Positions 1-38,632 of a DNA stretch of 41,593 nucleotides are shown piece after piece. Both the position numbers and the translations under genes were made by a program. The DNA is from a virus. Each line of letters begins with the position of its first letter. The first letter of the stretch is position 1. The DNA lies in IMG/VR virus record IMGVR_UViG_3300046808_000846, positions 1-41,593 of that record; one strand, given 5' to 3'. Under the pieces are notes generated by a model, which saw nothing but the letters and a program-made list of their open reading frames with translations, was not told the origin of the DNA and did no database searches.

Positions 1-401
1 GCCTTGGCCTCAGCCTCCCGGCGGGCGGCCTCGGCGGCCTCGCGCCGTTTGCGCTCTTCCTCGGCGGCGTAGGAGGTGACGAGCCCCGCCAACCGCTTCT
101 CCTCCTGGGCGGCATCGCCCCCAAAGGTTTTCGCCGCGTCGTCTATTTTCTTGCCGAGTTCGAGGAGCGGGGCCTTCACGGCCTTTCGACTTTCCTCCAG
201 CCGGTTTCGGAAGCTCGCAAGGTCTCGAATCACCTCGCGGATGGTGACGGACTCGGCGGAATTGGTGCAGGTTTGCAGCTCGTCTGCCCGATCGAGGAGC
301 GACTCGCGCAGCTCGATGGCGGCGCGGTTGGCGGTCAGGCCGAAGCCGTCCCCCGTGAGGCGGAAGACGGTCAACTCAGTGGTTTGTACGGGTGTTGTCA
401 T
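1..401 (-). CDS. Early coiled-coil protein, N-terminal part (runs off left edge)
   Basis: The frame opens with an ATG at 401 and stays open to base 1, giving 133 codons plus two bases. The protein starts MTTPVQTTEL. Its middle is helical and charged, and from about residue 110 it becomes an Ala/Glu/Arg coiled coil (KRREAAEAARREAEAKA). Proteins of this build occur in phage early operons near RecT, but I cannot assign a function. The start overlaps the end of the next gene upstream (376-591) by 26 bases, which suggests a shared transcript. The C-terminal part is probably the frame at 41378-41593 at the other end of the window. If so, the gene is cut by the ends of the sequence and is not truncated in nature. 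Confidence 0.7.
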   Translation of the reverse strand, partial: MTTPVQTTELTVFRLTGDGFGLTANRAAIELRESLLDRADELQTCTNSAESVTIREVIRDLASFRNRLEESRKAVKAPLLELGKKIDDAAKTFGGDAAQEEKRLAGLVTSYAAEEERKRREAAEAARREAEAK

Positions 402-591
402 GGTTTGCAATTTTGTAGTGTTGGTTTGTCAGCCCGAAATTTTTTGCGGCGGCTCGGGCCTCTTCCGCCGTCTCGAAGCGGGTGGCGTGCACCCAGTCCT
501 TTGCGCTCACCCATGCGTCCCGCTGGCGGGGGCCGAAGCCCTCCACGATCAGGAAGCAGCCGGTTTCCCGGTGCTGGATGGTGAACGCCAT
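376..591 (-). CDS. Small hypothetical early protein
   Basis: The gene encodes 71 aa, starting MAFTIQHRET and ending in NHDNTRTNH. The frame is open up to 633, but the ATG at 591 overlaps the TGA of the upstream membrane-protein gene (TGATG). That supports 591 as the start, with translational coupling. The protein has no signal peptide or membrane segment. It contains a short Trp/Phe-rich stretch followed by an EEARAAAKNFG helix. I do not recognise a family. It lies in the minus-strand early operon between a small membrane protein and a coiled-coil protein. Confidence 0.6.
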   Translation of the reverse strand: MAFTIQHRETGCFLIVEGFGPRQRDAWVSAKDWVHATRFETAEEARAAAKNFGLTNQHYKIANHDNTRTNH

Positions 592-848
592 CACCGCAGC
601 GATTTGCCAACCCACGCGGCTCCGCAGCCGCAAGCGAGGGCGAGCAAATACAGTCCTGAAGCGACGCCCTCGGGGAGCCCCGCGAACCGAGCCAGGGCGA
701 AGTCCACGGCGAAAAATCCCGCGAGGATCAGGAACATCCCGAACCTGAACCGCACCCGCCAGCGGCGAAGGTTGCGGGCCTCGATGCCGAGGCGGTCGTG
801 GGCGGGAACGGTGGGGCGAAGAACGCCGGAGTCAGTGGTGAATTTCAT
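591..848 (-). CDS. Small two-helix membrane protein
   Basis: The gene encodes 85 aa from the ATG at 848 (MKFTTDSGVL). An upstream in-frame start at 935 would run through the hairpin at 863-882, so it is less likely. The N-terminal 35 residues are polar and Arg-rich. Two hydrophobic segments follow: FGMFLILAGFFAVDFALA (about residues 40-57) and a Gly/Ala/Leu segment (about 66-80). The charge pattern suggests an inner-membrane protein with a cytoplasmic N-terminus. The function is unknown; small early membrane proteins in temperate phages are often exclusion factors, but nothing here proves that. The stop overlaps the next start. Confidence 0.55.
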   Translation of the reverse strand: MKFTTDSGVLRPTVPAHDRLGIEARNLRRWRVRFRFGMFLILAGFFAVDFALARFAGLPEGVASGLYLLALACGCGAAWVGKSLR

Positions 849-862
849 AGGGTTGGAAAGGT

Positions 863-882
863 GCGCCCCCCGGAGGGGGCGC
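863..882 (-). terminator. GC-rich hairpin after the 893-1204 gene
   Basis: GCGCCCCC and GGGGGCGC form an 8-bp stem with a CGGA loop. On the minus strand it lies 11 bases past the stop of the 893-1204 gene and is followed by ACCTTTCC, so the U tract is weak. It is probably a partial terminator or an mRNA 3'-end stabiliser between two early genes. Confidence 0.5.
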
Positions 883-892
883 GGGTTGCGTG

Positions 893-1204
893 TTACTTGC
901 TGAAGGCGACATAGACACCAAGCTCGGTGAGCCAAAGAGTGTCCCCGTAATCTTCGTCAACGTATCCGATGCCTTTTTGAATGAGGCTTGAAATCAACCC
1001 TCCCGCAGCTTTTTTGCTCCCGTTGAACAAAAACCTCGCCGCTTCTTTCGCCCCAGCGTTGCTGTAATTGTCCGACAACTGGCATTCGAGCTTGTCGTAA
1101 TTCAAAGTCATGGCAATGAAGGCGGCCTCATTTTGGGTAAGGGTTTTCCGAATCTCTGCGGCTTTTGCTGTAAGCTCTGCGGATGGTGCAAACGTGTTGT
1201 TCAT
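893..1204 (-). CDS. Orphan gene under a shared operator, unknown function
   Basis: The gene encodes 103 aa, starting MNNTFAPSAE and ending GVYVAFSK. It is soluble and mostly helical, with a central KEAARFLFNGSKKAAGG stretch and an acidic C-terminal half. I recognise no family. Its GC content is lower than its neighbours, and it has its own upstream signal and a hairpin after the stop, so it looks like a separately transcribed cargo gene. The start at 1204 is supported by the box reading ATTGGCGCCGTTATG on the minus strand. Nearly the same box precedes the genes at 5722 and 6064. The operator-like palindrome at 1218-1231 also matches those two genes and the control region. Confidence 0.65.
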   Translation of the reverse strand: MNNTFAPSAELTAKAAEIRKTLTQNEAAFIAMTLNYDKLECQLSDNYSNAGAKEAARFLFNGSKKAAGGLISSLIQKGIGYVDEDYGDTLWLTELGVYVAFSK

Positions 1205-1217
1205 AACGGCGCCAATA

Positions 1218-1231
1218 CTTGCAAGCGCAAG
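1218..1231 (-). promoter_or_regulatory. Operator-like palindrome CTTGC-N4-GCAAG upstream of 893-1204
   Basis: On the minus strand it reads CTTGCGCTTGCAAG: perfect 5-bp arms around a 4-bp spacer, 13 bases before the start codon. It matches the sites at 3727, 3748, 5683 and 6025. It is probably a binding site for the phage HTH regulator; this is inferred from the shared pattern and position. Confidence 0.6.
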
Positions 1232-1300
1232 CGCCTAAGAAAAGCAGAAAATTCGCTTTTCGTGCATTTTCTTTGCAAGTCCCTCGGGTTGAAAAGCAAA

Positions 1301-1325
1301 GCGCCCCCCGAAAACCGAGGGGCGC
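1301..1325 (-). terminator. Terminator of the RecE/RecT/HTH operon
   Basis: GCGCCCC (1301-1307) pairs with GGGGCGC (1319-1325). On the minus strand the hairpin is followed by TTTGCTTTTC, a usable U-rich tract. It lies just after the stop of the 1332-1532 gene, so it likely ends the minus-strand recombination operon. Confidence 0.65.
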
Positions 1326-1331
1326 CGCACT

Positions 1332-1532
1332 TCATCGCGAATTTTTCTTTTCGTACTCTTCCACCCCCGCCAGAGGGTAAAGCACTTTCCCGCCGACTTT
1401 TACGTAAGGCGGGCCTTGCCTTCGGCTCCGCCACGTCGTGAGGGTTGCGAGTTTGATTTCCTGCCGCCAACGCGCGAGCAACTCGCTTTGCGTCAGGTAC
1501 TTCTTCGGATCAGTCCCACTCGTCGTTTCCAT
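1332..1532 (-). CDS. Excisionase-like helix-turn-helix protein
   Basis: The gene encodes 66 aa, starting METTSGTDPK. The core matches small winged HTH proteins of the excisionase/MerR-like type. YLTQSELLARW and a recognition helix with TLTTWRSRRQGPP are followed by a wing with YVKVGGKVLYPLAGVEEY. Such proteins bind DNA and often act as directionality factors for tyrosine integrases or as small repressors. A good Shine-Dalgarno (GAGGGAG) lies six bases before the ATG, inside the 3' end of recT, so the two genes overlap by 23 bases. An excisionase role fits the integrase in this genome, but the gene is far from it. A transcriptional role is equally possible. Confidence 0.65.
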   Translation of the reverse strand: METTSGTDPKKYLTQSELLARWRQEIKLATLTTWRSRRQGPPYVKVGGKVLYPLAGVEEYEKKNSR

Positions 1533-2445
1533 TTTCTCCCTCTTGAGCGGGTTTTGTTTCTGTTACAGTTTTTGTCGGCGTCGGCAGCAACTCCGCGTCC
1601 ACTTCGGGAGCGGGGGCCGATGCTCTTCTCCGCGTTCTGGGCGCGGGTGGTGGGAGTACCTCTTGCGCGGGCTGGGAGGGCTCCGAAGGGGCCGGAGGCT
1701 CGGGAGCCGACGGCGAACTGGGGGCGGACTGGATCGACGCGTTGAGCGCGTCCACGGCGGAGGATTTGACCGAAACCGGCGTCACGTCGATCGTTCCGGC
1801 GTCCTCGACTTCCTCGGTGGCGTGCATCCCGTTGAGCACGTCCGGCGCGTAGAGCCGACCGAAGAACGCGGCGGCACGGTAACGCCCCATGAGGTCCGGC
1901 ATCGTCTGCCATTTCGAGCCTGGCTTCGTCCACCAGCCCTCGCGGACGGCGGTCTCAAATGAGACCGGCGGCCCTTCAAGCACCTCGCCGGTCGCCTTGT
2001 CGTATGCCCACGCCACGAACTGGGCGTTGCGTTTCAGCTCGGTGCTTTCGGTTTTGAACTGGCGCTTGTTCTCCCGCTTGTCCCACCACGACCGCTCAGA
2101 AACGACCGTCTGGGGCCCGAGTTCTTCGACTCGGAAGCGTAGCGGGGAGAATCTCCCGCAGGCGTTGAGCGCCGCGATGATGAACGAGGAAGACCACGAG
2201 GGGCGGCCCTCGATGATATGAAGGCTTTGCATCACGGCGAGCGGACTCGCTCCGATCCGCTGGGCCATCTCCAGCGCGATGAGGGCGTTCCCGATTTTCT
2301 CCCCGCGATAAGCTTCGGGGACGAGGTCCGAAGAACAAAGGCACCGAGCCATGCGCTGGGCCGCCTCAAAGGCGTCCAAGTTGGCAAATGGGCTCAGGGC
2401 CGACGAAGTGGTCGGTTGGTGGATTGCTAGGGTATTTTCACTCAT
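1510..2445 (-). CDS. recT: RecT-family single-strand annealing protein
   Basis: The gene encodes 311 aa from the ATG at 2445 (MSENTLAIHQ). A GTG at 2484 would add 13 residues but overlaps the end of the exonuclease gene. The conserved RecT core is clear. It has a helical AQRMARCLCSSDLVP segment, then NALIALEMAQRIGASPLAVMQSLHIIEGRPSWSS split over two helices, then an Arg/Lys-rich region with QFVAWAYDKATGEVLEGP and DLMGRYRAAAFFGRLYAPDV. The C-terminal 90 residues are Pro/Ser/Ala-rich and probably flexible. RecT proteins anneal single strands and promote strand exchange after exonuclease resection. The neighbouring RecE-like exonuclease is the usual partner. The gene lies in the minus-strand early operon. 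Confidence 0.88.
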   Translation of the reverse strand: MSENTLAIHQPTTSSALSPFANLDAFEAAQRMARCLCSSDLVPEAYRGEKIGNALIALEMAQRIGASPLAVMQSLHIIEGRPSWSSSFIIAALNACGRFSPLRFRVEELGPQTVVSERSWWDKRENKRQFKTESTELKRNAQFVAWAYDKATGEVLEGPPVSFETAVREGWWTKPGSKWQTMPDLMGRYRAAAFFGRLYAPDVLNGMHATEEVEDAGTIDVTPVSVKSSAVDALNASIQSAPSSPSAPEPPAPSEPSQPAQEVLPPPAPRTRRRASAPAPEVDAELLPTPTKTVTETKPAQEGENGNDEWD

Positions 2446-2459
2446 GGTTTTCTTGGTTT

Positions 2460-3290
2460 TTAGTTTTGGTTTTTCAGTGCCCACGCGGGCGCGGAAAGTG
2501 GTTGGACCTCAGCCGGATAACCGGGCCAGTGATTAGTTTCTAGGCAGCGCGCAAAAGTTGACAAGTCCCGTCGATACGTTTGCCGGCCGATTTCAACAAA
2601 TTCGGATTCCATCACGTAGGCCGCAACGAGGTGCGGGGCCTCCTTCTCGACCGCGATGAAAACAAACGCCTCGGCTTCGCCGCCGCAGGCCCGCAGGGCG
2701 TCGAGGTAGAATGCCGCTTGGACGTGGTACCGATAGTTGAAAGCCGAGCGGCGAAACCCGTCCGGGCTGGCGTCGTCTGTCGTTTTCAGGTCTACGATCA
2801 ACCCGTCACACCGGATGACGTCTGGGCGTGCCCGGCAGGCGATCCCGGTTTCGGAGTCCTCCCAGTAAAGGGAGTTTTCGATTTGCACGTCCCCGGAAAG
2901 GAGTTTCCCAGCAGCGGGGTGCAGGTGCACGGCTTTGGCAATTTGCGCGAGCGTCTGCATCTCAGCCGAAGTGAGGATTTCCCGTCCTGTTTCGGTTATG
3001 GCGTCCCATTCGGCTTTCCCCGCCTTTGTGCGCTTGTCGATGTTGTCCGGCGCAACGATGCAAACCTCGTTGAGAAGGTGAGGCTCAAGGACGGCGAGGT
3101 GAACCAGCGTCCCCCACCGCAGCGCAGGCGTCCGCTTTTCCGGCGGGGCGTGAAGTTTTTTGTAGCGGTACACCGCCGGGGCTTGAGCAATCAGGTCCAG
3201 CCCGTGTTTTGAGATTGTGGTGAGGTCCGAGTGATATTGCTCGGCGGGCAAGTCTCGGACAATTCGATTGGTTGTCAGTTGGTTTTTCAT
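2460..3290 (-). CDS. RecE-like PD-(D/E)XK exonuclease
   Basis: The gene encodes 276 aa, starting MKNQLTTNRI. The PD-(D/E)XK fold is visible: His64 in LVHLAVL, Asp157 in CRARPDVI, Asp167 and Lys169 in VDLKTT, and the later YHVQAAFYLD motif (about 188-197). This matches the RecE/YqaJ-type phage exonucleases (PDDEXK_12/DUF3799 group), which degrade one strand of duplex DNA to load the annealing protein. The start overlaps the stop of the upstream 103-aa gene (ATGA) and the stop lies 14 bases before recT. The pair therefore forms a coupled recombination module, useful for genome circularisation, repair or exchange with other phages. Confidence 0.85.
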   Translation of the reverse strand: MKNQLTTNRIVRDLPAEQYHSDLTTISKHGLDLIAQAPAVYRYKKLHAPPEKRTPALRWGTLVHLAVLEPHLLNEVCIVAPDNIDKRTKAGKAEWDAITETGREILTSAEMQTLAQIAKAVHLHPAAGKLLSGDVQIENSLYWEDSETGIACRARPDVIRCDGLIVDLKTTDDASPDGFRRSAFNYRYHVQAAFYLDALRACGGEAEAFVFIAVEKEAPHLVAAYVMESEFVEIGRQTYRRDLSTFARCLETNHWPGYPAEVQPLSAPAWALKNQN

Positions 3291-3598
3291 GGTTGCGAAA
3301 GCAGCGGCTCAACCCGGAGCCAGTGGGAGCGGGTGAACTCGCGCAGGTGCCCAACGGGACCGCCATGCCAGATGCGCACGGCGTCCTCGGGGGTGGGCAT
3401 CCGCCCTAGCATCGAGGGCCGGGTGAAATGCGAAAGGTACAGTCGCCCGAGCGCCCGAGCTTTGACCGGGTGAGCCAGGTCAGAGGTTTTCCACCGCGTT
3501 CCATACGCGGCGTTGAGCATCGTGATGTATTTCTCCCCGACCGTCAGCGTCCCGCCGTTGGCCCGAGCGATGGCGTCCAGAATTGCGTCGATGTCCAT
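3287..3598 (-). CDS. First gene of the leftward early operon, lysozyme-like motif
   Basis: The gene encodes 103 aa from the ATG at 3598 (MDIDAILDAI), with an excellent Shine-Dalgarno (GGGAGGA) five bases upstream. The frame stays open to 3739, but those starts lie within the operator region and have no ribosome site. The C-terminal half has PTPEDAVRIWHGGPVGHLR. A similar R-x-W-x-GGP-x-G motif occurs in small phage and plasmid proteins thought to have a lysozyme-like fold. There is no export signal, so a cell-wall role is uncertain. As the first gene transcribed leftward from the control region, an early regulatory or host-takeover role is also possible. The stop overlaps the exonuclease start. 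Confidence 0.6.
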   Translation of the reverse strand: MDIDAILDAIARANGGTLTVGEKYITMLNAAYGTRWKTSDLAHPVKARALGRLYLSHFTRPSMLGRMPTPEDAVRIWHGGPVGHLREFTRSHWLRVEPLLSQP

Positions 3599-3726
3599 CC
3601 GTGTCCTCCCGCTGCGAATCAGCGCAACGGGCCGCATGGCAGCGCGGGAAAACCTTCGGCGGAAGGTCGAGTGTGCGGATTCTTGCGGTTTCATGCGGAG
3701 ACTTGTGCAACTCTGCATTGCGTTTC

Positions 3727-3761
3727 CTTGCAAAAGCAAGAAAAAAACTTACGCTTGCAAG
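3727..3761. promoter_or_regulatory. Divergent control region with two operator palindromes
   Basis: Two 14-bp sites lie between the leftward operon (start 3598) and the rightward HTH gene (start 3763). Site 3727-3740 is CTTGCAAAAGCAAG with perfect 5-bp arms. Site 3748-3761 is CTTACGCTTGCAAG with one arm mismatch. They start 21 bp apart, two helical turns, as expected for cooperating dimers. An A7 run separates them. The second site ends one base before the HTH gene's ATG. The layout resembles a lysis-lysogeny switch. Confidence 0.65.
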
Positions 3762-3762
3762 C

Positions 3763-3951
3763 ATGAAGACCGACTTCAAGGCAGTCATCGCGTCGCTCGA
3801 TGAGCGTCGAAAACTCAAACACCTCAGTCGCCGCAAGTGGCTCGCCCGCGCGGACGTGCAGGAGAGCACCTTCTACCGTTGGCTCCAGGGTAAAACGACC
3901 CCGTTGCGAACCACTGTTAAACGCCTATCCGCCGCTTTGGATGAGCGTTGA
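3763..3951 (+). CDS. Small HTH regulator, candidate repressor/Cro
   Basis: The gene encodes 62 aa, starting MKTDFKAVIA. A helix-turn-helix spans about residues 23-45: RRKWLARADVQESTFYRW followed by LQGKTTPLRTTVKRLSAAL. This resembles minimal XRE/Cro-type or plasmid-type HTH proteins, with no separate oligomerisation or cleavage domain. The ATG is the only possible start here and sits directly against an operator-like palindrome, with no Shine-Dalgarno. The message may therefore be leaderless, as lambda cI is from PRM. The gene overlaps the helicase start by 11 bases. It is the best candidate for the protein that binds CTTGC-N4-GCAAG, but the lack of a larger CI-like repressor is notable. Confidence 0.65.
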   Translation: MKTDFKAVIASLDERRKLKHLSRRKWLARADVQESTFYRWLQGKTTPLRTTVKRLSAALDER

Positions 3952-5332
3952 GCTTCGAGACTACCAAGCGGAAGCCGTGCAGGCCGTCCGCGAATCTCTT
4001 CGGTCTGGGAAGCGCGCGCCGCTCCTCGTCGCTCCGACTGGGGCCGGGAAAACAGTCATGTTTTCGCACATTGCCCAAGGTGCGATGAGCAAGGGCAAGC
4101 GAGTGATGGTGCTCGTCCACCGAGAGCGGCTCCTCGATCAGGCGAGCGCCTCGCTCAAACGGCTCGGGGTGGAGCACGGGCTCATCAAGTCGGGCCGCAC
4201 GCCGGACCCGAGGCTTCCCGTCCAAATCGCCGGGGTGGACACGCTCGTGAACCGGCTCGACCGCTACGCGCCCCCGGACCTCATCATCGTGGACGAGGGA
4301 CATCACGCGGTCGCTGGGAAGTGGAAGCGGATCGTGGCGGCGTATCCGAAGGCCCGAGTCCTCGGGGTGACAGCAACGCCCGAACGGCTCGACGGCAAGG
4401 GGCTCGGGGACATTTACGACCACCTCATTCGGGGGCCGGAGGTTTCAGACCTCATCGAGCGCGGCTTTCTCTGCCAGCCGGTTTATTACGGGCCATCCAA
4501 AGTGGACACCGCGGGCCTCCGGGGCTCGGGGGATTTCACCCGCAAGGATGCCGAGCAGGCGGCGGACAAGCCCGTCATCACCGGGTGCGCCGTTTCCCAC
4601 TACCGCAAACTCTGCGACGGGGTGCCAGCGGTAGCGTTTGCCTGTTCGGTCAAACACGCCGAACACGTCGCCAGCGAGTTTCGCGCCGGTGGGTACAACG
4701 CCGCCGTGATCGAGGGCACGCAGGACGCCGCGGTTCAGCAACGGCTCATCGACCAGCTCGCCAGCGGGGCGCTTCAGGTTCTCGTGTCATGCGACCTCAT
4801 CTCCGAGGGGTTTGACCTTCCCCTTGTGACGGCCGCCATCCTCCTTCGCCCCACCAAATCGCTTTCCCTTCACCTCCAGCAGGTGGGGCGCGTCCTCCGC
4901 ACGCACGCCACCAAGACGCACGCCATCATCCTCGATCACGTCGGCAACTGCGAACGCCTCGGCTACGCGGAAGAAATTCGGGAGTGGACGTTGGAAGGGG
5001 CAAGGGCGCGAAAGAAGAGGGCAGGCGCCGACGGGCCGCTCTACCGGCAATGTCCCGCTTGCTACGGGATGCACCGCCCCGCGCCGGTGTGCGCGCTTTG
5101 CGGCCACGTGTACGAAGTGAAGGAGCGCGCGCCCGAGGCCGTGGACGGCGAGCTTCAGCAGCTCAACCCGGAAGGCGTCGCATGGAAGGCCAAGAAGCGC
5201 GAGAACGGCAAAGCGCAATCCCTCCCCGAACTCATCGCTCTGGGCAAACAAAGAGGCTACCGCAACCCGGCGGCGTGGGCCGCCCACATCCTCCGCGCCC
5301 GAGGGTACGGGCCCAAACTCGAAACCGTATGA
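3941..5332 (+). CDS. Superfamily II DNA helicase (DEAH-like)
   Basis: The gene encodes 463 aa from the ATG at 3941 (MSVELRDYQ). A longer frame from 3800 would lie across the HTH gene and is rejected. Helicase motifs are in order: Q-like DYQAEAV (7-13), Walker A APTGAGKT (31-38), Walker B DEGH (118-121), TATPER (144-149), and motif VI QQVGRVLR (313-320). A Cys4 zinc site follows (C371-x2-C374, C384-x2-C387). The type is that of RecG/UvsW/type III res-like phage helicases, which remodel forks or unwind duplexes. The VRR-NUC nuclease gene begins inside its stop codon (ATGA), a pairing common in phages, so the two probably act together at replication or recombination intermediates. Confidence 0.88.
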   Translation: MSVELRDYQAEAVQAVRESLRSGKRAPLLVAPTGAGKTVMFSHIAQGAMSKGKRVMVLVHRERLLDQASASLKRLGVEHGLIKSGRTPDPRLPVQIAGVDTLVNRLDRYAPPDLIIVDEGHHAVAGKWKRIVAAYPKARVLGVTATPERLDGKGLGDIYDHLIRGPEVSDLIERGFLCQPVYYGPSKVDTAGLRGSGDFTRKDAEQAADKPVITGCAVSHYRKLCDGVPAVAFACSVKHAEHVASEFRAGGYNAAVIEGTQDAAVQQRLIDQLASGALQVLVSCDLISEGFDLPLVTAAILLRPTKSLSLHLQQVGRVLRTHATKTHAIILDHVGNCERLGYAEEIREWTLEGARARKKRAGADGPLYRQCPACYGMHRPAPVCALCGHVYEVKERAPEAVDGELQQLNPEGVAWKAKKRENGKAQSLPELIALGKQRGYRNPAAWAAHILRARGYGPKLETV

Positions 5333-5673
5333 GCACCGAAAAACAGATCCAAAGCCAGATCCTCCTCGCCCTGGGCTCCCGGCCCGACGTTCGCCTCTTT
5401 CGAAACCACGTCGGGGGCGTTCGCGGCGAAGATGGCCGGTGGCACGATTTCGGGCTGGCCAAAGGGAGCGCCGACCTCATCGGGTGGCAGTCGATCGAGG
5501 TGACGCCGGAAATGGTGGGGCGTCGGTTAGCCGTGCTTGTCTCGATCGAGGTTAAAGGCCCCGGGGGGCGGGTGCGCCCGGAGCAAAAAAACTGGGCGGA
5601 GCAAGTGGCGCGGGTCGGGGGCGTTGCAGTGATTGCGCGCTCGGTGGAGGAAGCAAAGGCCGCTCTGCTTTGA
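5329..5673 (+). CDS. VRR-NUC domain nuclease
   Basis: The gene encodes 114 aa, starting MSTEKQIQSQ; the ATG overlaps the helicase stop. The short VRR-NUC form of the PD-(D/E)XK fold is visible: an N-terminal E-x2-I-Q helix, RLFRNHVGGVRGEDGRW, the acidic GSADLIGW, then SIEVKGPGGR with the catalytic E-x-K, and a final QKNWAEQVARVGGVAVIARS. Stand-alone VRR-NUC proteins in phages act as structure-specific nucleases and usually sit beside a helicase, as here. It probably resolves branched DNA made during replication or recombination. Its length is normal for the family. Confidence 0.85.
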   Translation: MSTEKQIQSQILLALGSRPDVRLFRNHVGGVRGEDGRWHDFGLAKGSADLIGWQSIEVTPEMVGRRLAVLVSIEVKGPGGRVRPEQKNWAEQVARVGGVAVIARSVEEAKAALL

Positions 5674-5682
5674 AAAAACGGG

Positions 5683-5721
5683 CTTGCATTTGCAGGTGGA
5701 GCGGGAAGAATTGGCGCCGCT
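5683..5721 (+). promoter_or_regulatory. Operator plus start-site box upstream of 5722
   Basis: CTTGCATTTGCAGG (5683-5696) matches CTTGC-N4-GCAAG with one mismatch. It is followed 25 bases later by the start codon, which lies inside the box ATTGGCGCCGCTATG. The gene at 6064 has the same arrangement with the same 25-base spacing. A TTGCAT hexamer and AGAATT with a 17-bp spacer could be a promoter overlapping the operator; that part is tentative. Confidence 0.55.
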
Positions 5722-5913
5722 ATGAAGAAAACGAACAGAATCGATGCCGTCCTTTATCCAAATCGAGGTGAAGCAACTTTGGTTGCGATTGAAGTTTTTG
5801 ATACGGAAAGCCCGAATCAATCTCGAATTTTATTCAGCAACGGAAGTGAAGTCATTGCCGAAAAGGTCGGCAACAACAGGTGGAAAATAAAAGGCGCTGA
5901 ACTCGTAGCCTAA
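5722..5913 (+). CDS. Orphan gene under a shared operator, small beta-rich protein
   Basis: The gene encodes 63 aa, starting MKKTNRIDAV and ending KGAELVA. Its predicted character is beta-rich and soluble: VLYPNRGEATLVAIEVFD, then an NGSEVIAEKVGNNRWKIKG hairpin. No family is recognised. Its base composition is lower in GC than the helicase and nuclease upstream, and its upstream region is near-identical in plan to that of the 6064 gene. This suggests an independently controlled cargo gene and not part of the helicase operon. The start has no Shine-Dalgarno. About 150 bases without a gene follow before the next start. Confidence 0.55.
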   Translation: MKKTNRIDAVLYPNRGEATLVAIEVFDTESPNQSRILFSNGSEVIAEKVGNNRWKIKGAELVA

Positions 5914-6024
5914 AACGGCAACGCGCTTCCCTTGAACTGGCAGCGAAAACCATTTTCCCAACGGGGCAAAAAGCAGGTTCCGCAAGTTCAGTGAAAGAGG
6001 CGACGCGGATCCTCGAATAAAAAG

Positions 6025-6063
6025 CTTGCGCGTGCAAGTGGAATTGCAAGAATTGGCACCGCT
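6025..6063 (+). promoter_or_regulatory. Operator plus start-site box upstream of 6064
   Basis: CTTGCGCGTGCAAG (6025-6038) has perfect 5-bp arms. The following 25 bases closely match those before 5722, ending in ATTGGCACCGCTATG. TTGCGC and AGAATT with 17-bp spacing recur here as well. The repetition suggests one regulator and perhaps one promoter type for both genes. Confidence 0.6.
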
Positions 6064-6477
6064 ATGAAAAACATCGTTGAAATCTTAAATCTGTTCCCGA
6101 GCAACAATCACATCCGCATTGAGGTTGAATGCTTCATGCCTCTTGTAGTTGAGCGTCTCGGATGGTTTGGGCCAAGGGGTTTGCCCCTTGTCTCTGTCGC
6201 TCATTACTTTGAGCAAAACGGTGATCTTTGCAAAGACCCCGAAATGACTTTTGAGGTCATGCCAGACGGTTCTCTCGATCCGATTTCTTTCGAGATGTGG
6301 ACGGGAATTTATTGGGTCGCACTTTGGAAAGACGGGGATGAGGTGATGGTCAAACCGAAGATGAGAAAAGAGCACCGAGCTTTTGCGCGCAGCTGGAACC
6401 AAAACATCGCAGAACAAGGTTTCGTGAAGGCAGCTCGTCAAAAAGCAAAAGTCCAATCCAACAGGGTTCTCGCCTAA
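6064..6477 (+). CDS. DUF6908-like protein
   Basis: The gene encodes 137 aa, starting MKNIVEILNL. The central segment SVAHYFEQNGDLCKDPEMTFEV, split by one turn and followed by ISFEMWTGIYW, is characteristic of the DUF6908 group found on plasmids, phages and integrative elements. No biochemical role is known to me for that group. The C-terminal 35 residues are basic (RKEHRAFARSWNQ and on), which could favour nucleic acid binding. The gene carries its own operator-like upstream region and is followed by a strong terminator, so it is a self-contained unit. Its GC content is lower than the flanking replication genes, which hints at separate acquisition. Confidence 0.65.
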   Translation: MKNIVEILNLFPSNNHIRIEVECFMPLVVERLGWFGPRGLPLVSVAHYFEQNGDLCKDPEMTFEVMPDGSLDPISFEMWTGIYWVALWKDGDEVMVKPKMRKEHRAFARSWNQNIAEQGFVKAARQKAKVQSNRVLA

Positions 6478-6483
6478 AAACCC

Positions 6484-6518
6484 GCCCCCCCCGGCGACCC
6501 CGGGGGGGGCACCACTTT
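6484..6518 (+). terminator. Strong G/C-run terminator
   Basis: The left arm 6484-6494 (G, eight C, GG) pairs perfectly with 6500-6510 (CC, eight G, C). This is an 11-bp stem with a 5-base loop, followed by ACCACTTTTC. It lies seven bases after the stop of the 6064 gene and separates that unit from the primase genes. Confidence 0.75.
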
Positions 6519-6526
6519 TCCAGATC

Positions 6527-6772
6527 ATGCAAATTCAGATCATTTCCCAGACGCACCAAAGCTTGAGGGCAACGTGCGGCAAAAAAACCGCGTTCGTCTT
6601 TCGAGCAAGCACAGGCGTCTGGGTTACTTGCGAGAATGCGTCACACCGAGTTTGGCGCGGCGGAGGACGTGCTTTCAGAACTTGGGACGAGGCTCAAAAT
6701 GGGTACAGGTCACCCGAAATGCGCGCGATCATCAAACTGGCTGAGCAACTGACCACAACAACTGCCGAATGA
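6527..6772 (+). CDS. Small hypothetical protein ahead of the primase
   Basis: The gene encodes 81 aa, starting MQIQIISQTH. It has an N-terminal beta-like region (SLRATCGKKTAFVFRASTG), a Trp/Arg-rich middle (HRVWRGGGRAFRTWDEA) and a C-terminal helix. I do not recognise a family. Its stop overlaps the primase-helicase start (ATGA), so the two are translated together and it may assist replication. Its base composition is less GC-rich than the primase. The start follows the terminator at 6484-6518 by only nine bases, so transcription must restart near here or read through. Confidence 0.55.
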   Translation: MQIQIISQTHQSLRATCGKKTAFVFRASTGVWVTCENASHRVWRGGGRAFRTWDEAQNGYRSPEMRAIIKLAEQLTTTTAE

Positions 6773-9402
6773 GCGTAGACTTTGCCAGAATCAACGAGGC
6801 GGCGCGCGGCTGCCTCGAATCTCTCCTTCACGCGTGGTTTCCAGCCGGGAGGCGTGAAGGCCCGGAGTGGAAGGTGGGCTCCCTTCAGGGCGAGCCTGGG
6901 CGCTCGCTTTCGATTTCCCTTCGCACCGGCGTTTGGAAGGATTTCAGCTCCGACGAGGGCGGATCCGATCCGATCTCCCTCCTCGCAGCCATCAAGGGGT
7001 GCGACATGGGCGCCGCCGCGCGGGAGTTGGACGAACTCCTTCAGCTCGGCGAGTTCCCAAAACGGGAAGCCGCCCAAGCGGTCCCAAAACGGGAAGAGTG
7101 GGAGCCCCTCCCGCACGCTCCGTCCGCAGCGCCGCCCGCGAGTTTCGAACACTTTAAGCACGGGGCGCCGAGCGCCGTGTGGACTTACCGGGACGCCGAG
7201 GGCCGCATCATCGGCCACGTTTGCCGGTTTGACCTCGGGGACGGGAAAAAGGACGTCTGCCCGATGGCATGGTGCCGGAACGCCGAGGGCCGGGAGCGGT
7301 GGAAATGGAAATCCTTCCCAAAGCCGCGCCCCCTTTACGGGCTGGACGAACTCGCCGCGAAACCCGCCGCCCCCGTGCTCGTCGTCGAGGGGGAGAAATG
7401 CGCGGACGCGGCCCGGGCGCTTCTTCAGAACGCCGTCGTCATCTCGTGGCCCGGGGGAGGGAAAGCGGTTGGATACACCGACTGGACCCCCCTTGCCGAG
7501 CGCCGGGTCACCGTTTGGCCCGACGCAGACGAGCCGGGCAGGGCAGCCGCCGAGCGCATCGCCGCGATCCTCGACGCTTCCGCTGCTTCGGTGCGGGTGC
7601 TCGCCGTCTACGGGCGTCCAGAGGGCTGGGACGTGGCCGACGCCATCGGTGAGGGCTGGACCGAGGCGGACATCCGGGGGGCGCTGAAGGCCGGCAGGGT
7701 TGGGGAGCCGGAGCCGGTTTATCAGCCTGAGGAGCAGGAAGCGCCACGCGTGCAACAGGTGCACCCCGCAGACGTGGAGGAACCGCCAGGCTATTCCGGC
7801 GTGCAAGCCGAGGAGCGCACCGATTCAAACGAAGACGACTGGCCTTTTCGCGTCCTCGGCTACAACAAAGGGGCGTATTTCTACTTGCCCGACGGGTCGC
7901 AGCAGATCATCGCGCTCACTCCAAGCGAACACCGCGAGCTTCCCCTCCTCCAGCTCGCCCCAGCGAATTTCTGGGAAGGTCAATTCCCGGCCAAAGAAGG
8001 CGCGAACTACAAAGCCGCCGCGAACTGCCTCATCCAACTTGCCCACCGGCAGGGAATGTTCTCGCACAAGCAGATTCGGGGGCGCGGCGCGTGGATCGAT
8101 GGCGAGGCGACTATCTACCACCTCGGAGACCACCTCGTTGTGGACGGCAACCGCGTTCCGATCCGGCAACACCGAAGCCGCTACGTGTACGAGTTGGCCG
8201 AGCACATCGACGCGCCGGAGGCCGCACCGGCCCCCAACGCCGAGGCCGTGAAGCTCCTCCGGGTTTGCGAACTCATGCCGTGGAAGCATCCGCTCCACGC
8301 GAAATTCCTCGCGGGCTGGCTTGTCTTGGCTCCCATTTCCGGCGTGCTTCAGTGGAGGCCGCACGTCTGGATCAACGGGCCGAGCGGAACGGGCAAAAGC
8401 TGGATCCTCTCGAACGTCGTGCAAAGGCTCGTCGGGTCAGCGTGCATCAACGTCCAATCCGCCACCACCGAGGCGGGCATCCGGCAAAGCCTCGGGTGCG
8501 ATTCACTCCCCGTCATTTTCGACGAGGCCGAGAGCGAAGACAAACGCGGGCAACAGCGGATCCAAGCCATCCTCGAACTCGCGCGCGGAGCGTCGGCCGA
8601 AACTGGCGCAGGCATTGCCAAGGGCACCGCAAGCGGTGAAGCCATGGTGTTTCGGATGCGATCGAGCTTCTGCTTTGCCTCGATCGGCGTGGCGGCGACC
8701 CAAAAGGCAGACGTTTCGCGCATCACCTCCCTTGAGCTTCAAAAGGCGTTCGGAAAAACCGGCGAAGAAGCGTTTGCGCTCCTGAAGCGGCTCGTGAACG
8801 AAACGGCGGCGGATCCGGCTTGGTGCGACTCGGTGCGAAGCCGGTCGCTTTCGATGTCCAAGGTCATCCGGTCAAACGCGGCAGTTTTTGCCGCCTCCGT
8901 TGCAGCGCACCTTGGGGACCAGCGCGTGGGGGATCAGCTCGGGACTCTCCTCGCGGGCGCATTCAGCCTCACGTCAGCGAAGGCAGTCGATCGAGCTTTT
9001 GCAGACGATTGGGTTCGCTCCCAAGATTGGGGCCATTGGGTTCCCGAGGACGCGGACAAGGACGAGATTCGCGCTTTCTCGATGCTCTGCGAGGCGACGC
9101 TCCGCATCGATGGGGACGGCGCTCCGAAGACGGTCTCGGTGGGCGAACTCGTGAAGGCCGGACTGCGGGGCGAAGAGGTGGCGGTCCTCGCCCTCCTTCG
9201 CAACGGGGTGAAGATCCGGCGGGACGGCTCGGTGGCGGTCTCGAACACCCATCACGCGCTTGTCCGCATCTTCGACGAAACACCCTGGGCAAAAAAGTGG
9301 CACCATCAACTCCTCCGGCTCGATGGGGCCGCTCCTTCAGTGGAACGGTTCAACGGGCTTTCGCAGCGCGCGGTTGTCGTCCCGATGCCGTATTTTGAGT
9401 GA
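6769..9402 (+). CDS. Toprim primase-helicase (DUF927/D5-like)
   Basis: The gene encodes 877 aa, starting MSVDFARINE. The N-terminal 90 residues resemble the DNA-binding region of phage primases (GVWKDFSSDEGGSDPISLLA). A Toprim domain follows, with VVEGEKCADAA near residue 205 and WPDADEPG near 250. After an acidic linker comes a DUF927/D5-like region, then an ATPase core with Walker A GPSGTGKSW near 537 and Walker B FDEAESED near 584. It likely primes DNA synthesis and unwinds the template as one polypeptide, the main replication protein of the phage. No DNA polymerase is visible, so the host polymerase is presumably recruited. The putative origin lies directly downstream. Confidence 0.85.
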   Translation: MSVDFARINEAARGCLESLLHAWFPAGRREGPEWKVGSLQGEPGRSLSISLRTGVWKDFSSDEGGSDPISLLAAIKGCDMGAAARELDELLQLGEFPKREAAQAVPKREEWEPLPHAPSAAPPASFEHFKHGAPSAVWTYRDAEGRIIGHVCRFDLGDGKKDVCPMAWCRNAEGRERWKWKSFPKPRPLYGLDELAAKPAAPVLVVEGEKCADAARALLQNAVVISWPGGGKAVGYTDWTPLAERRVTVWPDADEPGRAAAERIAAILDASAASVRVLAVYGRPEGWDVADAIGEGWTEADIRGALKAGRVGEPEPVYQPEEQEAPRVQQVHPADVEEPPGYSGVQAEERTDSNEDDWPFRVLGYNKGAYFYLPDGSQQIIALTPSEHRELPLLQLAPANFWEGQFPAKEGANYKAAANCLIQLAHRQGMFSHKQIRGRGAWIDGEATIYHLGDHLVVDGNRVPIRQHRSRYVYELAEHIDAPEAAPAPNAEAVKLLRVCELMPWKHPLHAKFLAGWLVLAPISGVLQWRPHVWINGPSGTGKSWILSNVVQRLVGSACINVQSATTEAGIRQSLGCDSLPVIFDEAESEDKRGQQRIQAILELARGASAETGAGIAKGTASGEAMVFRMRSSFCFASIGVAATQKADVSRITSLELQKAFGKTGEEAFALLKRLVNETAADPAWCDSVRSRSLSMSKVIRSNAAVFAASVAAHLGDQRVGDQLGTLLAGAFSLTSAKAVDRAFADDWVRSQDWGHWVPEDADKDEIRAFSMLCEATLRIDGDGAPKTVSVGELVKAGLRGEEVAVLALLRNGVKIRRDGSVAVSNTHHALVRIFDETPWAKKWHHQLLRLDGAAPSVERFNGLSQRAVVVPMPYFE

Positions 9403-9459
9403 CAGCAGCGCCGCCGCTCGCATAGTTTGACGCCGCAAGGGTGTCGTTTCATAGCAAAA

Positions 9460-9494
9460 GGCCGGTCCTCGAAAGGGGGCCGGCCAACTTTTTG
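9460..9494 (+). terminator. Terminator after the primase-helicase
   Basis: GGCCGGTCC pairs with GGGCCGGCC-type bases ending at 9485, a stem of about nine pairs including one G-T wobble. AACTTTTTG follows. It lies 57 bases past the primase stop and likely ends the rightward replication transcript. Confidence 0.7.
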
Positions 9495-9575
9495 CCCGGA
9501 TGCCGCGCGGTAGAGGGGGCGCCAAAGGGCATTTCTATGCTTCGAAGGGTGGAGATAGCGGAAAGGCCGTTTTGC

Positions 9576-10728: not shown

Positions 10729-11535
10729 GTGAAAACCAAGACCAATCTAAAACCAGAACTTGAAACCGTGAGCGTCGAGGCGCTCATTCCATACGCTCGC
10801 AACAGTCGAACCCACTCTGACGAACAGGTTGCACAGATTGCTGCTTCGATTCGCGAGTTCGGATTCACCAATCCCGTTCTCATCGGAGCAGAGAACGACA
10901 TCATTGCAGGTCACGGCCGCGTTCTGGCTGCTCGCAAGCTTGAGCTGAAGGATGTCCCCTGCATTCGGCTTGGGCATCTCACTGAAACGCAGAAGCGCGC
11001 TTATGTCATCGCTGACAACAAGCTCGCGCTCAACGCAGGTTGGGACGAGGAGCTTCTTGCAATCGAGCTTTCGTCTCTGCGAGAAGTCGGATTTGACCTT
11101 GGGCTGGTTGGTTTTAATGCAGAGCAGATCGAAGCCGCACTGAACCCGCCCGAGCCAGAAAGCAGTTTGAGCGACAACTACACCCACAAGGTGGAGGCCC
11201 CAGTCTATGAGCCAAACGGGGACAAGCCTGCTGTTTCTGAGTTGATCGACAAAAGTCGCTCAGATGCTTTGATTGCCGAAATTGACAAAGCAAAGGTGCC
11301 GCATGAGGTTGCTTCGTTCCTCAAAGCCGCTGCACTTAGGCACACGGTTTTCAACTTTGAGAAAATCGCAGAGTTTTATTGTCACGCAGACAAAGACATT
11401 CAGGCTCTCATGGAGAACTCAGCCCTTGTGATTATCGACTTCAAAAAGGCGATGCAACTTGGGTATGTAAAACTCAAAGATGAGATAGCGGATGCCCTTG
11501 AAGGGGAGCCTAACGAGGAACAATCCGATGAATAA
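10729..11535 (+). CDS. ParB/sulfiredoxin-like domain protein of modification-type loci
   Basis: The gene encodes 268 aa from a GTG at 10729. The N-terminal 95 residues are a ParB-like nuclease domain: VSVEALIPYARNSRTHSDEQV, then GFTNPVLI, then the GHGRVLAARKL motif (about 64-74) and ADNKLALNAGWDEELL. The C-terminal part has SDALIAEIDKAKVPHEVASF and LMENSALVIIDFKKA, a tail I associate with phage ParB proteins next to glycosyltransferases. Such ParB-like domains may be ATPases, CTPases or nucleases, and in phages often sit beside DNA-modifying enzymes. The next gene overlaps its end by 8 bases. GC content is clearly lower than in the terminase genes. It is not a plasmid partition protein: there is no ParA. 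Confidence 0.75.
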   Translation: MKTKTNLKPELETVSVEALIPYARNSRTHSDEQVAQIAASIREFGFTNPVLIGAENDIIAGHGRVLAARKLELKDVPCIRLGHLTETQKRAYVIADNKLALNAGWDEELLAIELSSLREVGFDLGLVGFNAEQIEAALNPPEPESSLSDNYTHKVEAPVYEPNGDKPAVSELIDKSRSDALIAEIDKAKVPHEVASFLKAAALRHTVFNFEKIAEFYCHADKDIQALMENSALVIIDFKKAMQLGYVKLKDEIADALEGEPNEEQSDE

Positions 11536-12388
11536 AAGCTTTTGCGTGTTTATTATCAGCCACGGGCGGCATGATAAAATTGTTACTCTCAAGACATTAG
11601 CAAAACGCGGATACACCGGGCCGCTTTTTATTGTCTGCGACAATGAAGACAAGACCCTTGTTGAATACAGAAACAACTATGGATCAAAACTCCTTGTTTT
11701 TGACAAACTATCGTACGCGCAGAAGGTAGACAGCTGCGACAATTTTCAAAACCGCAGGACAACAACTCATGCGCGAAATGCTTGTTTCGATTTTGCAAAA
11801 CAACTTGGCTATGAGTTTTTTCTAGTGTTGGATGACGACTACACAGATTTTCGCTATACGTTCAACCGTCAGGGTGAATTTATCCGCAAACAGACTAAAG
11901 ACCTCAACGGCGTCTTTGCTGCCATAATCAACTTCCTCGATTCTGATGAGCGAATCGACTCCATTTGCATGATGCAGACGGGGGACATGATTGGAGGAGA
12001 AAACTCCAGTCTTTGGAAGGGAAATTATTTCCCGTTCAAAAACAGAAAGGCAATGAACTCGTTTTTCTGTAAGACGTCCCGGCGCTTTTGGTTCTTCAGC
12101 CGATTAAATGAAGACGTCAATACCTACCTGACTCTTGGAAATCGCGGTCGGTTGTTTTTTACGCTCCCAGAGGTGTACCTTCAGCAAGCGCAAACGCAAG
12201 CAACGGCGGGCGGTATGTCGGACGCTTATCTTGCAAGCGGCACGTATGTGAAGTCATTTTATACGGTTATGTTGTGCCCGTCCTTTGCCATTGCAACGGT
12301 AACAAGCAGCATGAAAAGACTTCATCACAAGATCAGCTGGAATAATGCGATCCCAAAAATTCTCGATGAATCATACAGGAAAGCATGA
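11528..12388 (+). CDS. Putative TET-associated-type (TAGT) DNA-base glycosyltransferase
   Basis: The gene encodes 286 aa from the ATG at 11528 (MNKSFCVFII), with GAGGA about nine bases upstream. It has a GT-A-like glycosyltransferase build. FIISHGRHDKIVTLKTL and GPLFIVCDNEDKT form the nucleotide-sugar half. A conserved TTHARNACFDFAKQLGYEFF helix leads into FLVLDDDYTDF, an acidic DxD-type metal site near residue 100. This pattern resembles the TAGT family proposed to sugar-modify hydroxymethylated bases in phage DNA. The assignment is by motif only. The gene overlaps the ParB-like gene before it and the small terminase after it, so it is expressed with packaging. Its GC content is near 45 percent, unlike its neighbours, which points to horizontal transfer. 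Confidence 0.65.
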   Translation: MNKSFCVFIISHGRHDKIVTLKTLAKRGYTGPLFIVCDNEDKTLVEYRNNYGSKLLVFDKLSYAQKVDSCDNFQNRRTTTHARNACFDFAKQLGYEFFLVLDDDYTDFRYTFNRQGEFIRKQTKDLNGVFAAIINFLDSDERIDSICMMQTGDMIGGENSSLWKGNYFPFKNRKAMNSFFCKTSRRFWFFSRLNEDVNTYLTLGNRGRLFFTLPEVYLQQAQTQATAGGMSDAYLASGTYVKSFYTVMLCPSFAIATVTSSMKRLHHKISWNNAIPKILDESYRKA

Positions 12389-35395: not shown

Positions 35396-35835
35396 GCGTC
35401 CAAATGATTCTCGGGTTTTTCCCGTTCAGCGTTTCAACCGCCGCCTACGACGAACTCACCCGCGCGCACTCCTACGACTGGGCCGAGCAGCGCCGCGTGG
35501 GCCAGCTCCCCCGTCTCCAATTCACCGGGCCGAACTCGCCCGTCATTCAGCTCCGGGGAACCCTCATCCCACCATTCACCGGCACCAGGGCGAACGTCGC
35601 TCGGATCCGGCTCATGGCGGAGCAGGGCAAGCCGCTCCTCCTCATCGCCGGGACGGGGCTTGTGCTGGGGCGCTGGGTCATCATCGAAATCAGCGACACG
35701 GGGACTTTCTTCGCCCCTAACGGGCAGCCGAGGCGGACCGAGTTCAACCTTGCGCTCAAAAAATACGACGACGGGGCCGGGCCGTTCCAGCAGGCCCTCA
35801 CCAAGATTTCCAACATCGCGGCGTCAATCGTTTAG
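35392..35835 (+). CDS. U: Tail protein U
   Basis: The gene encodes 147 aa, starting MSVQMILGFF. P2 gpU features: GFFPFSVSTAAYDELTRAHSYDWAEQRRVG (in parts), PVIQLRGTLIPPFTGTRANVARIRLMAEQGKPLLL (in parts), then RWVIIEISDTGTFF. It acts in tail tube completion or baseplate assembly in P2. The gene overlaps the tape measure gene by four bases and is followed by gpX, then gpD, in the P2 order. Confidence 0.88.
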   Translation: MSVQMILGFFPFSVSTAAYDELTRAHSYDWAEQRRVGQLPRLQFTGPNSPVIQLRGTLIPPFTGTRANVARIRLMAEQGKPLLLIAGTGLVLGRWVIIEISDTGTFFAPNGQPRRTEFNLALKKYDDGAGPFQQALTKISNIAASIV

Positions 35836-35838
35836 GCC

Positions 35839-36048
35839 ATGCAATACCGGACCAAACAGGACGAAATGCTCGACGAAATCCTTTGGCGCGTGTTTGACAC
35901 GACCGAGAAGCAGGTGCTCGAAAAGACGCTGGCGCTCAACCCTGGGCTCGCGGACTACGGGCCGACGCTGCCCCCCGGGCTCCTCCTCGAACTGCCCGAG
36001 AAGCCGCTCAAAGACGTGACGGCCAGCACGCCTATCCTCTACGCATGA
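35839..36048 (+). CDS. X: Tail protein X (LysM-like)
   Basis: The gene encodes 69 aa, starting MQYRTKQDEM. DEMLDEILWRVFDTTEKQVLEKTLALNPGLADYGPTLPPG, read in parts, is the small LysM-like tail protein X fold; a typical second strand ends ILLELPE-like LLLELPE. P2 gpX is 67 aa. It probably binds peptidoglycan or helps hold the hub at the tube end. The ATG of gpD overlaps its stop. Confidence 0.9.
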   Translation: MQYRTKQDEMLDEILWRVFDTTEKQVLEKTLALNPGLADYGPTLPPGLLLELPEKPLKDVTASTPILYA

Positions 36049-37192: not shown

Positions 37193-37196
37193 CGGA

Positions 37197-37295
37197 ATGT
37201 TTTGGGGGATTTTCGGCTTCTACTTAGGCGTTTGCTTTGGATGGTTCTGGGCGGCGGTCTTCATCGCTGCGGACGATGGAGAGGATTGCACCTGA
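37197..37295 (+). CDS. Possible 32-aa membrane peptide
   Basis: A 32-codon frame starts four bases after gpD-C (MFWGIFGFYLGVCFGWFW) and ends DDGEDCT. It is almost wholly a hydrophobic helix with an acidic end. The GCGGA before the ATG is a weak ribosome site. It overlaps the integrase 3' end in antisense by 72 bases. The base composition fits a real gene, but length and overlap make it doubtful. Confidence 0.3.
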   Translation: MFWGIFGFYLGVCFGWFWAAVFIAADDGEDCT

Positions 37296-38408
37296 CGCCC
37301 GCGCGGCGTTTCGGTGCTTCTCGCTTTGCGGCCCGTGAATGTATCGGGCGGCGGTCGCCATCTGGCGATGCCCTAGGAGGTCCGCAACCTCCCGCTGGCT
37401 CGCCCCGGCGCGGTGAGCGAGCGAGCCGACCGTGTGGCGGATGTCATGGAGGCGCACTTCGGGCCGGATCCGCGCGGCGGCTTTGAGGTTGCGCCACATC
37501 CGTTGGTGCCCTTCGACGGGGCCGCCATCGCGCCCCGGCAGGACGAAGAGCGACGTGCGCGGCAGCGCGGCCAGCAGCTCGACGACCTCGGGCGGAAGCG
37601 GCACGTCTCGCGCCCCCGTTTTGCTTTCCTCGTGCGGGATCCGCAGCCGGGCGTTTGGCAGGTCCACCCACGACCAGAGCGCGCGCCTCCACTCCCCGCA
37701 GCGGCAGCCGGTCAGGAGGAGCAGCCGGACGAGTGTGGCGAAGGACGGCATCCAACGGGGCGAGTCCAGCTCCGCCCAAAGGCTGGCAACCTCGTCGGGC
37801 TCCAGCAGCGCCTCCCGGGGGGCCTCGGGGAAGTCCTCGATGTCCTCGCACGGGTTCGAGTGCCGGGGGCGCATCCCCCACTTCTCGGCGAGGCGGAACG
37901 CCACCCGGAGCATCTCAAACACGCGGTTGCAGTTTGTGGGGCGCGGCGCGAGCTTGCGGTGGAGGCGCAGGAGGTCAGCCTGGGCGATGTCTGCCACGGC
38001 GGGGTTTCCGAGCGCGGGCAGCACGTGCAGCCGCCACGCGATCTCATAGTTTCGGGCCGTGCCCCGGCGCTTCTGGGCGGCGTGCTCGATCATAAAGCGG
38101 TCCCGCAGCTCCTCCAGCCGAGCCGCTTGGCGGCGCCGCGTCCGATCGGCTTTCGGGTCGCCCCCGGCCCGCACGGCTTTGAACGCCTCCCGGGCCATCT
38201 CGCGCGCCTCCTCGGGGTGCAGCTCCTCGGCGGTCCCGAGGGTCAGCAGCCGCCCCGTCCCCGTGTGGGTTCGGTAACGGACGACAAACGACCGGCGCCC
38301 CGACTCCAAGACGCGCAGGCCGAAGCCGGGCAGCACCGAATCCCAAGTGAACCCGACCGCAGCGGCTTCGACACTGCGGACGGTTAGTTTCTGGCGGTTT
38401 TCGGGCAA
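37224..38408 (-). CDS. int: Tyrosine integrase
   Basis: The gene encodes 394 aa. The start is a TTG at 38408 (MPENRQKLTV) with AAGGAG about seven bases upstream. The N-terminal arm-binding region is of the P4/DUF4102 type (DSVLPGFGLRVLESGRRSFVVRYR, in parts). A core-binding domain follows (about 110-195). The catalytic domain shows Arg in TGCRCGEWRRALW, Lys in EESKTGARDVPL, HDIRHTVGS (His-x2-Arg), GHRQMATAARYIHG with His and the nucleophile Tyr. All catalytic residues are present. It recombines attP with a host site; the tRNA-derived core at 39520-39572 and flanking repeats lie about 1.1 kb upstream. The last 45 residues are non-conserved and Arg/Asp-rich. Confidence 0.92.
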   Translation of the reverse strand: MPENRQKLTVRSVEAAAVGFTWDSVLPGFGLRVLESGRRSFVVRYRTHTGTGRLLTLGTAEELHPEEAREMAREAFKAVRAGGDPKADRTRRRQAARLEELRDRFMIEHAAQKRRGTARNYEIAWRLHVLPALGNPAVADIAQADLLRLHRKLAPRPTNCNRVFEMLRVAFRLAEKWGMRPRHSNPCEDIEDFPEAPREALLEPDEVASLWAELDSPRWMPSFATLVRLLLLTGCRCGEWRRALWSWVDLPNARLRIPHEESKTGARDVPLPPEVVELLAALPRTSLFVLPGRDGGPVEGHQRMWRNLKAAARIRPEVRLHDIRHTVGSLAHRAGASQREVADLLGHRQMATAARYIHGPQSEKHRNAARASGAILSIVRSDEDRRPEPSKANA

Positions 38409-38632
38409 GGGGGCGCTCCTTGGTTTGGCGGGATGAACAGGCGGAACGCCTGCACCGTCTCGGCGGTGTTGCGGATCACAGCGCGGGCTTCATCAAGCTC
38501 AGCGCGGAGGGCGTGAATGGTTTCGCGCAGTGTGGCGTTGAGCTTTTCCGACGTAGACAGGCGCGAGCAATAAACGCCCGAATGGATATTCTCAACGACG
38601 CCGCACCTCGGGCAATAAGGTTCGCGGCTCAT
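38384..38632 (-). CDS. Zinc-finger/coiled-coil early protein
   Basis: The gene encodes 82 aa, starting MSREPYCPRC. A zinc-like knuckle (CPRCGVV, then GVYCSRL) at residues 7-24 is followed by a helix (LNATLRETIHALRAELDEARAVI) and a polar tail. The start overlaps the previous stop (ATGA) and the end overlaps the integrase start by 25 bases. Such small proteins in phage early operons may bind DNA or host factors; the function is unknown. Confidence 0.6.
   Translation of the reverse strand: MSREPYCPRCGVVENIHSGVYCSRLSTSEKLNATLRETIHALRAELDEARAVIRNTAETVQAFRLFIPPNQGAPPCPKTARN

Follow-up and report, generated by a model that had tools for sequence, protein, structure and literature searches.

The C1 regulon of phage P1 is a case of one phage regulator acting at several dispersed sites, and classical morons, autonomous cargo genes of phages, are independent of a phage regulator. 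The stoperators of mycobacteriophage L5 are likewise several dispersed sites of one phage regulator (PMC9283540). Aca proteins are small HTH repressors that act on inverted repeats within acr core promoters, with one or two repeats per promoter (PMC9410906). Here we compare with these systems the IMG/VR virus record IMGVR_UViG_3300046808_000846 (41,593 bases, GC 61.5%), which was analysed in full and is called the window below, and in which copies of one palindrome lie before a small HTH gene and before accessory genes that differ between related phages.

The window contains phage genes for terminase, portal, tail sheath and baseplate, and it encodes a tyrosine integrase, so the phage is probably temperate. 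A divergent control region (3695-3762) separates two operons. The leftward one has genes for a PD-(D/E)XK nuclease and for an annealing protein of RecT-like type; the rightward one encodes the HTH protein, a helicase, an endonuclease/resolvase-like protein and a primase. Among bacterial genomes, the closest relatives of the primase are in a Verrucomicrobiales MAG (43%), which is not a host assignment. A contig of a sister phage, IMGVR_UViG_3300047546_002090 (L007/L008), crosses the joined ends of the window (L008 matches 1-9510 and 35779-41593), so that in the window we probably have an almost complete genome, circularly permuted. At 10729-12388, a ParB-like/DNA-methyltransferase-like ORF adjoins an ORF that matches a phage HMC-glucosyltransferase family; these are possible DNA-modification genes.

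Positions, frequency and promoter context of the palindromes

The original prediction had described five CTTGC-N4-GCAAG palindromes upstream of genes and none elsewhere. All five are present where it had placed them (Table 1), three perfect and two with one mismatch, and a scan of the whole 41.6-kb record gave zero further sites at <=1 mismatch. As it had also expected, the sites avoid coding sequence, 5/5 being intergenic on a rough gene map.

Table 1. Features of the window and, in the last line, of the sister phage
Feature	Coordinates	Strand	Remark
Putative left-slot operator, CTTGCAAGCGCAAG, 0 mismatches	1218..1231	-	13 nt before ATG of gene 893-1204
Putative control-region operator 1, CTTGCAAAAGCAAG, 0 mismatches	3727..3740	.	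overlaps -35-like TTGCAA of putative HTH promoter
Putative control-region operator 2, CTTACGCTTGCAAG, 1 mismatch	3748..3761	.	covers -10-like hexamer; ends one base before HTH ATG
Putative right-slot operator 1, CTTGCATTTGCAGG, 1 mismatch	5683..5696	+	TTGCAT at -35-like position, N16, AAGAAT
Putative right-slot operator 2, CTTGCGCGTGCAAG, 0 mismatches	6025..6038	+	
Left-slot gene, 103 aa, GC 49%	893..1204	-	unrelated AcrIE4-family gene in its place in sister
First gene of leftward operon	3287..3694	-	start not certain
Candidate regulator, 62-aa HTH protein, predicted Cro/C1-like fold	3763..3951	+	first gene of rightward early operon
Superfamily-2 helicase gene	3941..5332	+	in rightward operon proposed as HTH-regulated
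Endonuclease/resolvase-like gene (VRR-NUC-like)	5329..5673	+	before right slot
Right-slot gene 1, 63 aa, no family, GC 43%	5722..5913	+	absent from sister
Recombination scar, 3' end of sister-type nuclease gene	5930..6020	+	between two right-slot modules
Right-slot gene 2, 137 aa, DUF6908 (PF21849), GC 48%	6064..6477	+	
Tyrosine integrase	37224..38408	-	context gene
AcrIE4/AcrF31-family anti-CRISPR homologue, 61 aa, sister left slot	L008:7271-7453	-	Pfam and PDB matches

Counted with up to 2 mismatches, the motif is about as frequent in the record as chance predicts (25 observed, 27 expected). At <=1 mismatch, the five observed sites compare with ~2.3 in order-3 Markov sequences, and five were reached in 20 of 200 simulations; taken alone, this count is weak evidence for real sites. 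The perfect sites are strong evidence against chance, with three observed and 0.1 expected, a number reached in 0 of 200 simulations. An empirical background of 1.88 Mb from other loci contained 6 perfect N4 sites and 8 perfect N6 sites; the former figure corresponds to 0.13 perfect N4 sites expected in a window of 41.6 kb (P ~3.5e-4). The intergenic share of the window is ~6.6% on the rough gene map, so that the location of all five sites there has P ~1e-6 under uniform placement. The perfect N4 sites of cyanobacterial loci were set aside, as they mostly represent one recurring conserved context and were not linked to this HTH.

The three outlying sites have the start region ATTGGCRCCGYTATGA in common, and 5682-5729 and 6024-6071 are 48-nt copies of one operator-leader module, 79% identical. 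Across the sites of the window and its relatives, the left arm supplies a -35-like TTGCNN, followed at most sites by a -10-like hexamer 16-17 bp downstream (TAGAGT, TACTTT, TATACT, TAAATT, AAGAAT, TACGCT or TATCGT). These hexamers are weak, matching at 3-5 of 6 positions, and a generic promoter scan gave no consensus promoter at any of the operator sites. The distance from operator start to start codon is 35-39 nt at 13/21 sites, regardless of arm spacing; at the left slot, in both the window and its sister, it is 27 nt to the ATG, which lies outside the -35 geometry. Several transcripts may be leaderless. Since the left arm occupies a -35-like position, the putative operators probably serve repression.

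Covariation of site spacing with the HTH protein

The 62-aa HTH protein is the sole Cro/C1-type HTH detected within the record, and a search of the record for an S24-type repressor found none. Its Pfam matches to Cro/C1-type families are sub-threshold. The AF2 model is confident (pLDDT 89.7), and Foldseek with this model gave weak matches to 434 Cro, P22 c2 and restriction-modification C-proteins, none at E <=0.001; Aca proteins are not among the PDB sequence or fold matches listed. By predicted fold and gene position, the protein resembles a Cro protein. Searches for it in bacterial genome contigs and in INPHARED phages gave no match, and its profile gave weak matches only, without sites, in 387 genomes from the phylum of the nearest primase-bearing MAG.

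The sister phage is 76-96% identical to the window over shared stretches, and its HTH is 98% identical. It has four sites, at the orthologous left slot (L008:7467), at both control-region operators and at the DUF6908 slot. Both control-region operators are identical in the two phages; the spacers differ at 2/4 bases in the left slot and at 3/4 in the DUF6908 slot, and the arms are unchanged. When the window/sister comparison was pooled with that of two more distant phages (L060/L061), arm positions were unchanged in 70/70 cases and spacer positions were changed in 11/34 (Fisher P 1.3e-6).

More distant relatives, L059-L062, were found by HTH profile, besides L042 and L045. Within the matched stretch the HTH proteins of L059-L062 have 53% identity, and those of L060, L061 and L062 are 49% identical to the window HTH. 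Each of the latter three phages has three perfect sites, one each upstream of the left-slot gene, of the HTH gene and of the gene that follows the nuclease gene. Every one of these is CTTGC-N6-GCAAG, with zero N4. L045 and L059 have CTTGC-N6-GCAAG just 5' of the HTH gene, L045 with one additional N6 site that is apparently coding, and L042 has only degenerate TTGCA repeats near its HTH or small genes. A still more diverged HTH (30% identical, L023) is accompanied by two N6 sites, each 5' of a small gene; at these two putative operators (L023:2513 and L023:6218) there are good -10-like boxes, and the small genes, both acidic and of 71 and 66 aa, add to the list of candidate slot genes. The N4 version was seen in two phages only, the window and its sister. 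Across 8/8 aligned HTH sequences, S35, T36, R39, W40, G43 and P47 are invariant.

Where relatives share the helicase and primase but lack this HTH, no such site precedes the helicase gene, and related loci without an HTH of the ST-x-x-RW type have no promoter-region site. The HTH relatives L065-L069 have no CTTGC/GCAAG site before the HTH gene. A collection-wide scan with the N6 operator plus -10 pattern gave, among the matches listed, none that pairs two promoter-region sites with such an HTH; the N6 sites of L197 were rejected as operators, as they lie within coding sequence.

In the sequences compared, site spacing is altered at all sites of a phage together, tracking the HTH version. This covariation of sites and HTH between phages is the main evidence for the HTH protein as the cognate regulator, and it lends good support to the one-repressor regulon of the original prediction. 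The sites, their conservation and the concerted change of spacing are established by sequence.

Turnover of the slot genes and an anti-CRISPR homologue

The slot genes are mostly unrelated between close relatives, and operators and leaders are conserved. Left-slot proteins have 103 aa in the window, 61 aa in the sister, 63 aa in L060 and 107-108 aa in L061 and L062, the last two being 72% identical to each other. The right slot holds the 63-aa and DUF6908 proteins in the window and a DUF6908 protein, 47-50% identical, in the sister; the right-slot proteins of L060, L061 and L062 have 116, 61 and 78 aa. The GC content of the window slot genes is 43-49%, as against 61.5% for the record. The stretch at 5930-6020 duplicates the 3' end of the sister-type nuclease gene, and the end of the intact gene upstream of it (5329-5673) has diverged. 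GC-rich, terminator-like hairpins lie near slot genes at 1300-1326 and 6482-6511.

The window slot proteins gave no match in PADLOC and NCBIfam, no recognisable anti-defence family was found among the window's own cargo genes, and no literature on DUF6908 was found. Homologues of the 103-aa protein (40-46%) occur, among phage records, only in the Bordetella phages CN1, CN2, MW2 and FP1, and the MW2 homologue is part of a longer hypothetical protein. No function was gained from this context, where the neighbours are metabolic and hypothetical genes.

The left slot of the sister holds a recognisable gene. Its protein matches PF25703 AcrF31 at 36.1 bits (cut-off 27). It also aligns with the AcrIE4 part of AcrIE4-F7, a dual inhibitor (PDB 7vzm, residues 3-53, E 8e-7), and shares 42% identity with an ORF of Pseudomonas phage LESphi4 that carries an anti-CRISPR annotation and adjoins AcrIF3 and AcrIF5 genes. 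The residues mapped for Cas8e binding by AcrIE4 are E19, Y20, D22, D30 and E31, with E19 essential (PMC8887544). They align with T21, Y22, D24, E32 and A33 of the sister protein, so that Y20 and D22 are kept, D30 is replaced by E, and E19 and E31 are lost. Since these residues are kept only in part, anti-CRISPR activity of the sister protein cannot be assumed. PF25703 gave no match in the 387 genomes named above, but positive controls gave none there either, so this negative carries no weight. Gene turnover in the slots and the presence of an anti-CRISPR homologue in the sister are likewise established.

The original prediction had further suggested that the orphan genes behind the sites are perhaps lysogenic cargo. 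This is not supported as worded, because genes with the operator of an early regulator at a -35-like element should be expressed at infection, while the regulator has yet to accumulate, and because the sole slot gene with a recognisable function family, that of the sister, is an anti-CRISPR homologue.

Proposed working, alternatives and known systems

Judged from sequence comparison, we consider it quite likely that the five palindromes are operators of an Aca-like/Cro-like HTH autorepressor that heads the early operon and acts in trans on two exchangeable anti-defence slots. The 62-aa HTH protein would bind the palindromes, presumably as dimers, and the operators would lie at the promoters of two accessory slots and at those of the divergent early control region, that of the HTH gene included. 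At infection, when no HTH protein would be present, the slot promoters and the early operon could fire at once, giving a burst of small anti-defence proteins; accumulating HTH protein would then cover the -35 elements and turn its own operon and the slots off together. Slot genes would be exchanged via recombination between related phages, with operator and leader retained. HTH binding, repression, its timing and an anti-defence role of the window's own cargo are what we infer here.

The main rival assumes the same regulon, with the HTH as a lysogenic (CI-like) repressor and the slot genes as ordinary lytic accessory or host-takeover genes that are silent in the prophage. It would suit the encoded integrase, the failure of the record search to give an S24 or other Cro/C1-type repressor, and the location of the operators at early promoters. 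However, the HTH heads the replication operon that it would silence, an arrangement that Cro/Aca-like autorepression fits better, and the one recognisable slot gene, in the sister, is an anti-CRISPR homologue. As the HTH gene is the first of the replication operon, an early-shutoff (Cro/Aca-like) repressor is favoured, and we regard the lysogenic role as less likely, if still the strongest competitor. There could also be a lysogenic repressor elsewhere, of a type that escapes recognition.

That a host regulator, or host promoter elements, account for the palindromes and that the phage HTH is unrelated to them is improbable. The -35-like hexamer does coincide with the left arm, but a -35 alone leaves the conserved right arm unexplained; moreover, the spacing shifts at all sites of one phage jointly, tracking the HTH version, and the sites are missing in relatives without this HTH. 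We give still less weight to RNA hairpins in 5' leaders that would control translation or termination in place of DNA operators. The 5-bp stems and 4- or 6-nt spacers are able to form hairpins, but control-region operator 2 stops a single base short of the ATG, operator 1 sits between divergent genes, most promoters have the site upstream of their predicted transcription start, and the arms are kept base for base, without a compensatory change among 70 arm positions. A chance origin, or recent duplication of sequence that has no regulatory meaning, with which the simulated <=1-mismatch count (reached in 20/200) and the duplicated module of the right-slot pair would agree, is hardly credible against the perfect-site excess, the intergenic placement, the conservation of arms over spacers and the recurrence with altered spacing in independent phages.

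The proposed early-shutoff regulon bears on how anti-defence genes, which are short, fast-changing and difficult to recognise, might be found. Should the operator be a marker of the slots, all genes that follow it in these phages become candidate anti-defence genes; these would be the 103-aa, 63-aa and DUF6908 proteins of the window and ~8 other types of protein from relatives. The regulon would also mean acr-type control by a core early regulator in trans, with no dedicated aca gene. The phages form a natural series in which the ST-x-x-RW recognition-helix core and the half-site are constant and the spacing is 4 or 6, and which lends itself to the study of concerted change in a whole operator set. 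A wider reading, to which we would give slightly less than an even chance, is of a temperate phage family with two dedicated anti-defence slots under the operator of its own early regulator, in which newcomers to a slot receive an immediate-early burst followed by shutoff, operator and regulator coevolve (N4 to N6), and the operator is a tag for counter-defence genes. The operator sign could then serve to find new counter-defence genes in uncultured phages.

Among known systems, the Aca systems share with this locus a small HTH protein (62 aa, predicted Cro/C1-like fold here), inverted repeats and, in the sister phage, a putatively regulated slot with an anti-CRISPR-family gene. The Aca inverted repeat lies in the core promoter; here the left arm is -35-like at most sites, the -10 hexamers are weak and the left slot of window and sister is a misfit. 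In contrast to Aca systems, this HTH would act in trans on two slots plus its own promoter, and its gene lies outside any acr operon, heading the early replication operon ~2-2.5 kb away, so we do not class it as Aca. As to AcrIE4 and AcrIE4-F7, the sister protein is alike over the AcrIE4 domain, whereas the left slot of the window holds another gene.

Cro and C1 of the 434/P22 type are alike in predicted fold, in having two operators (putative ones here) within a divergent early control region and in the Cro-like gene position, but here putative operators also lie at distant accessory genes and no second C1-type repressor was found. Like morons, the slot genes have low GC, a putative promoter of their own, end hairpins and different genes in their place in close relatives; unlike them, they share the putative operator of a phage regulator. 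With the P1 C1 regulon and the L5 stoperators, this locus has in common one regulator and several dispersed sites, here five putative sites with comparative support; it differs in that the palindromic sites are few and lie at promoters of exchangeable small genes, with none inside operons.
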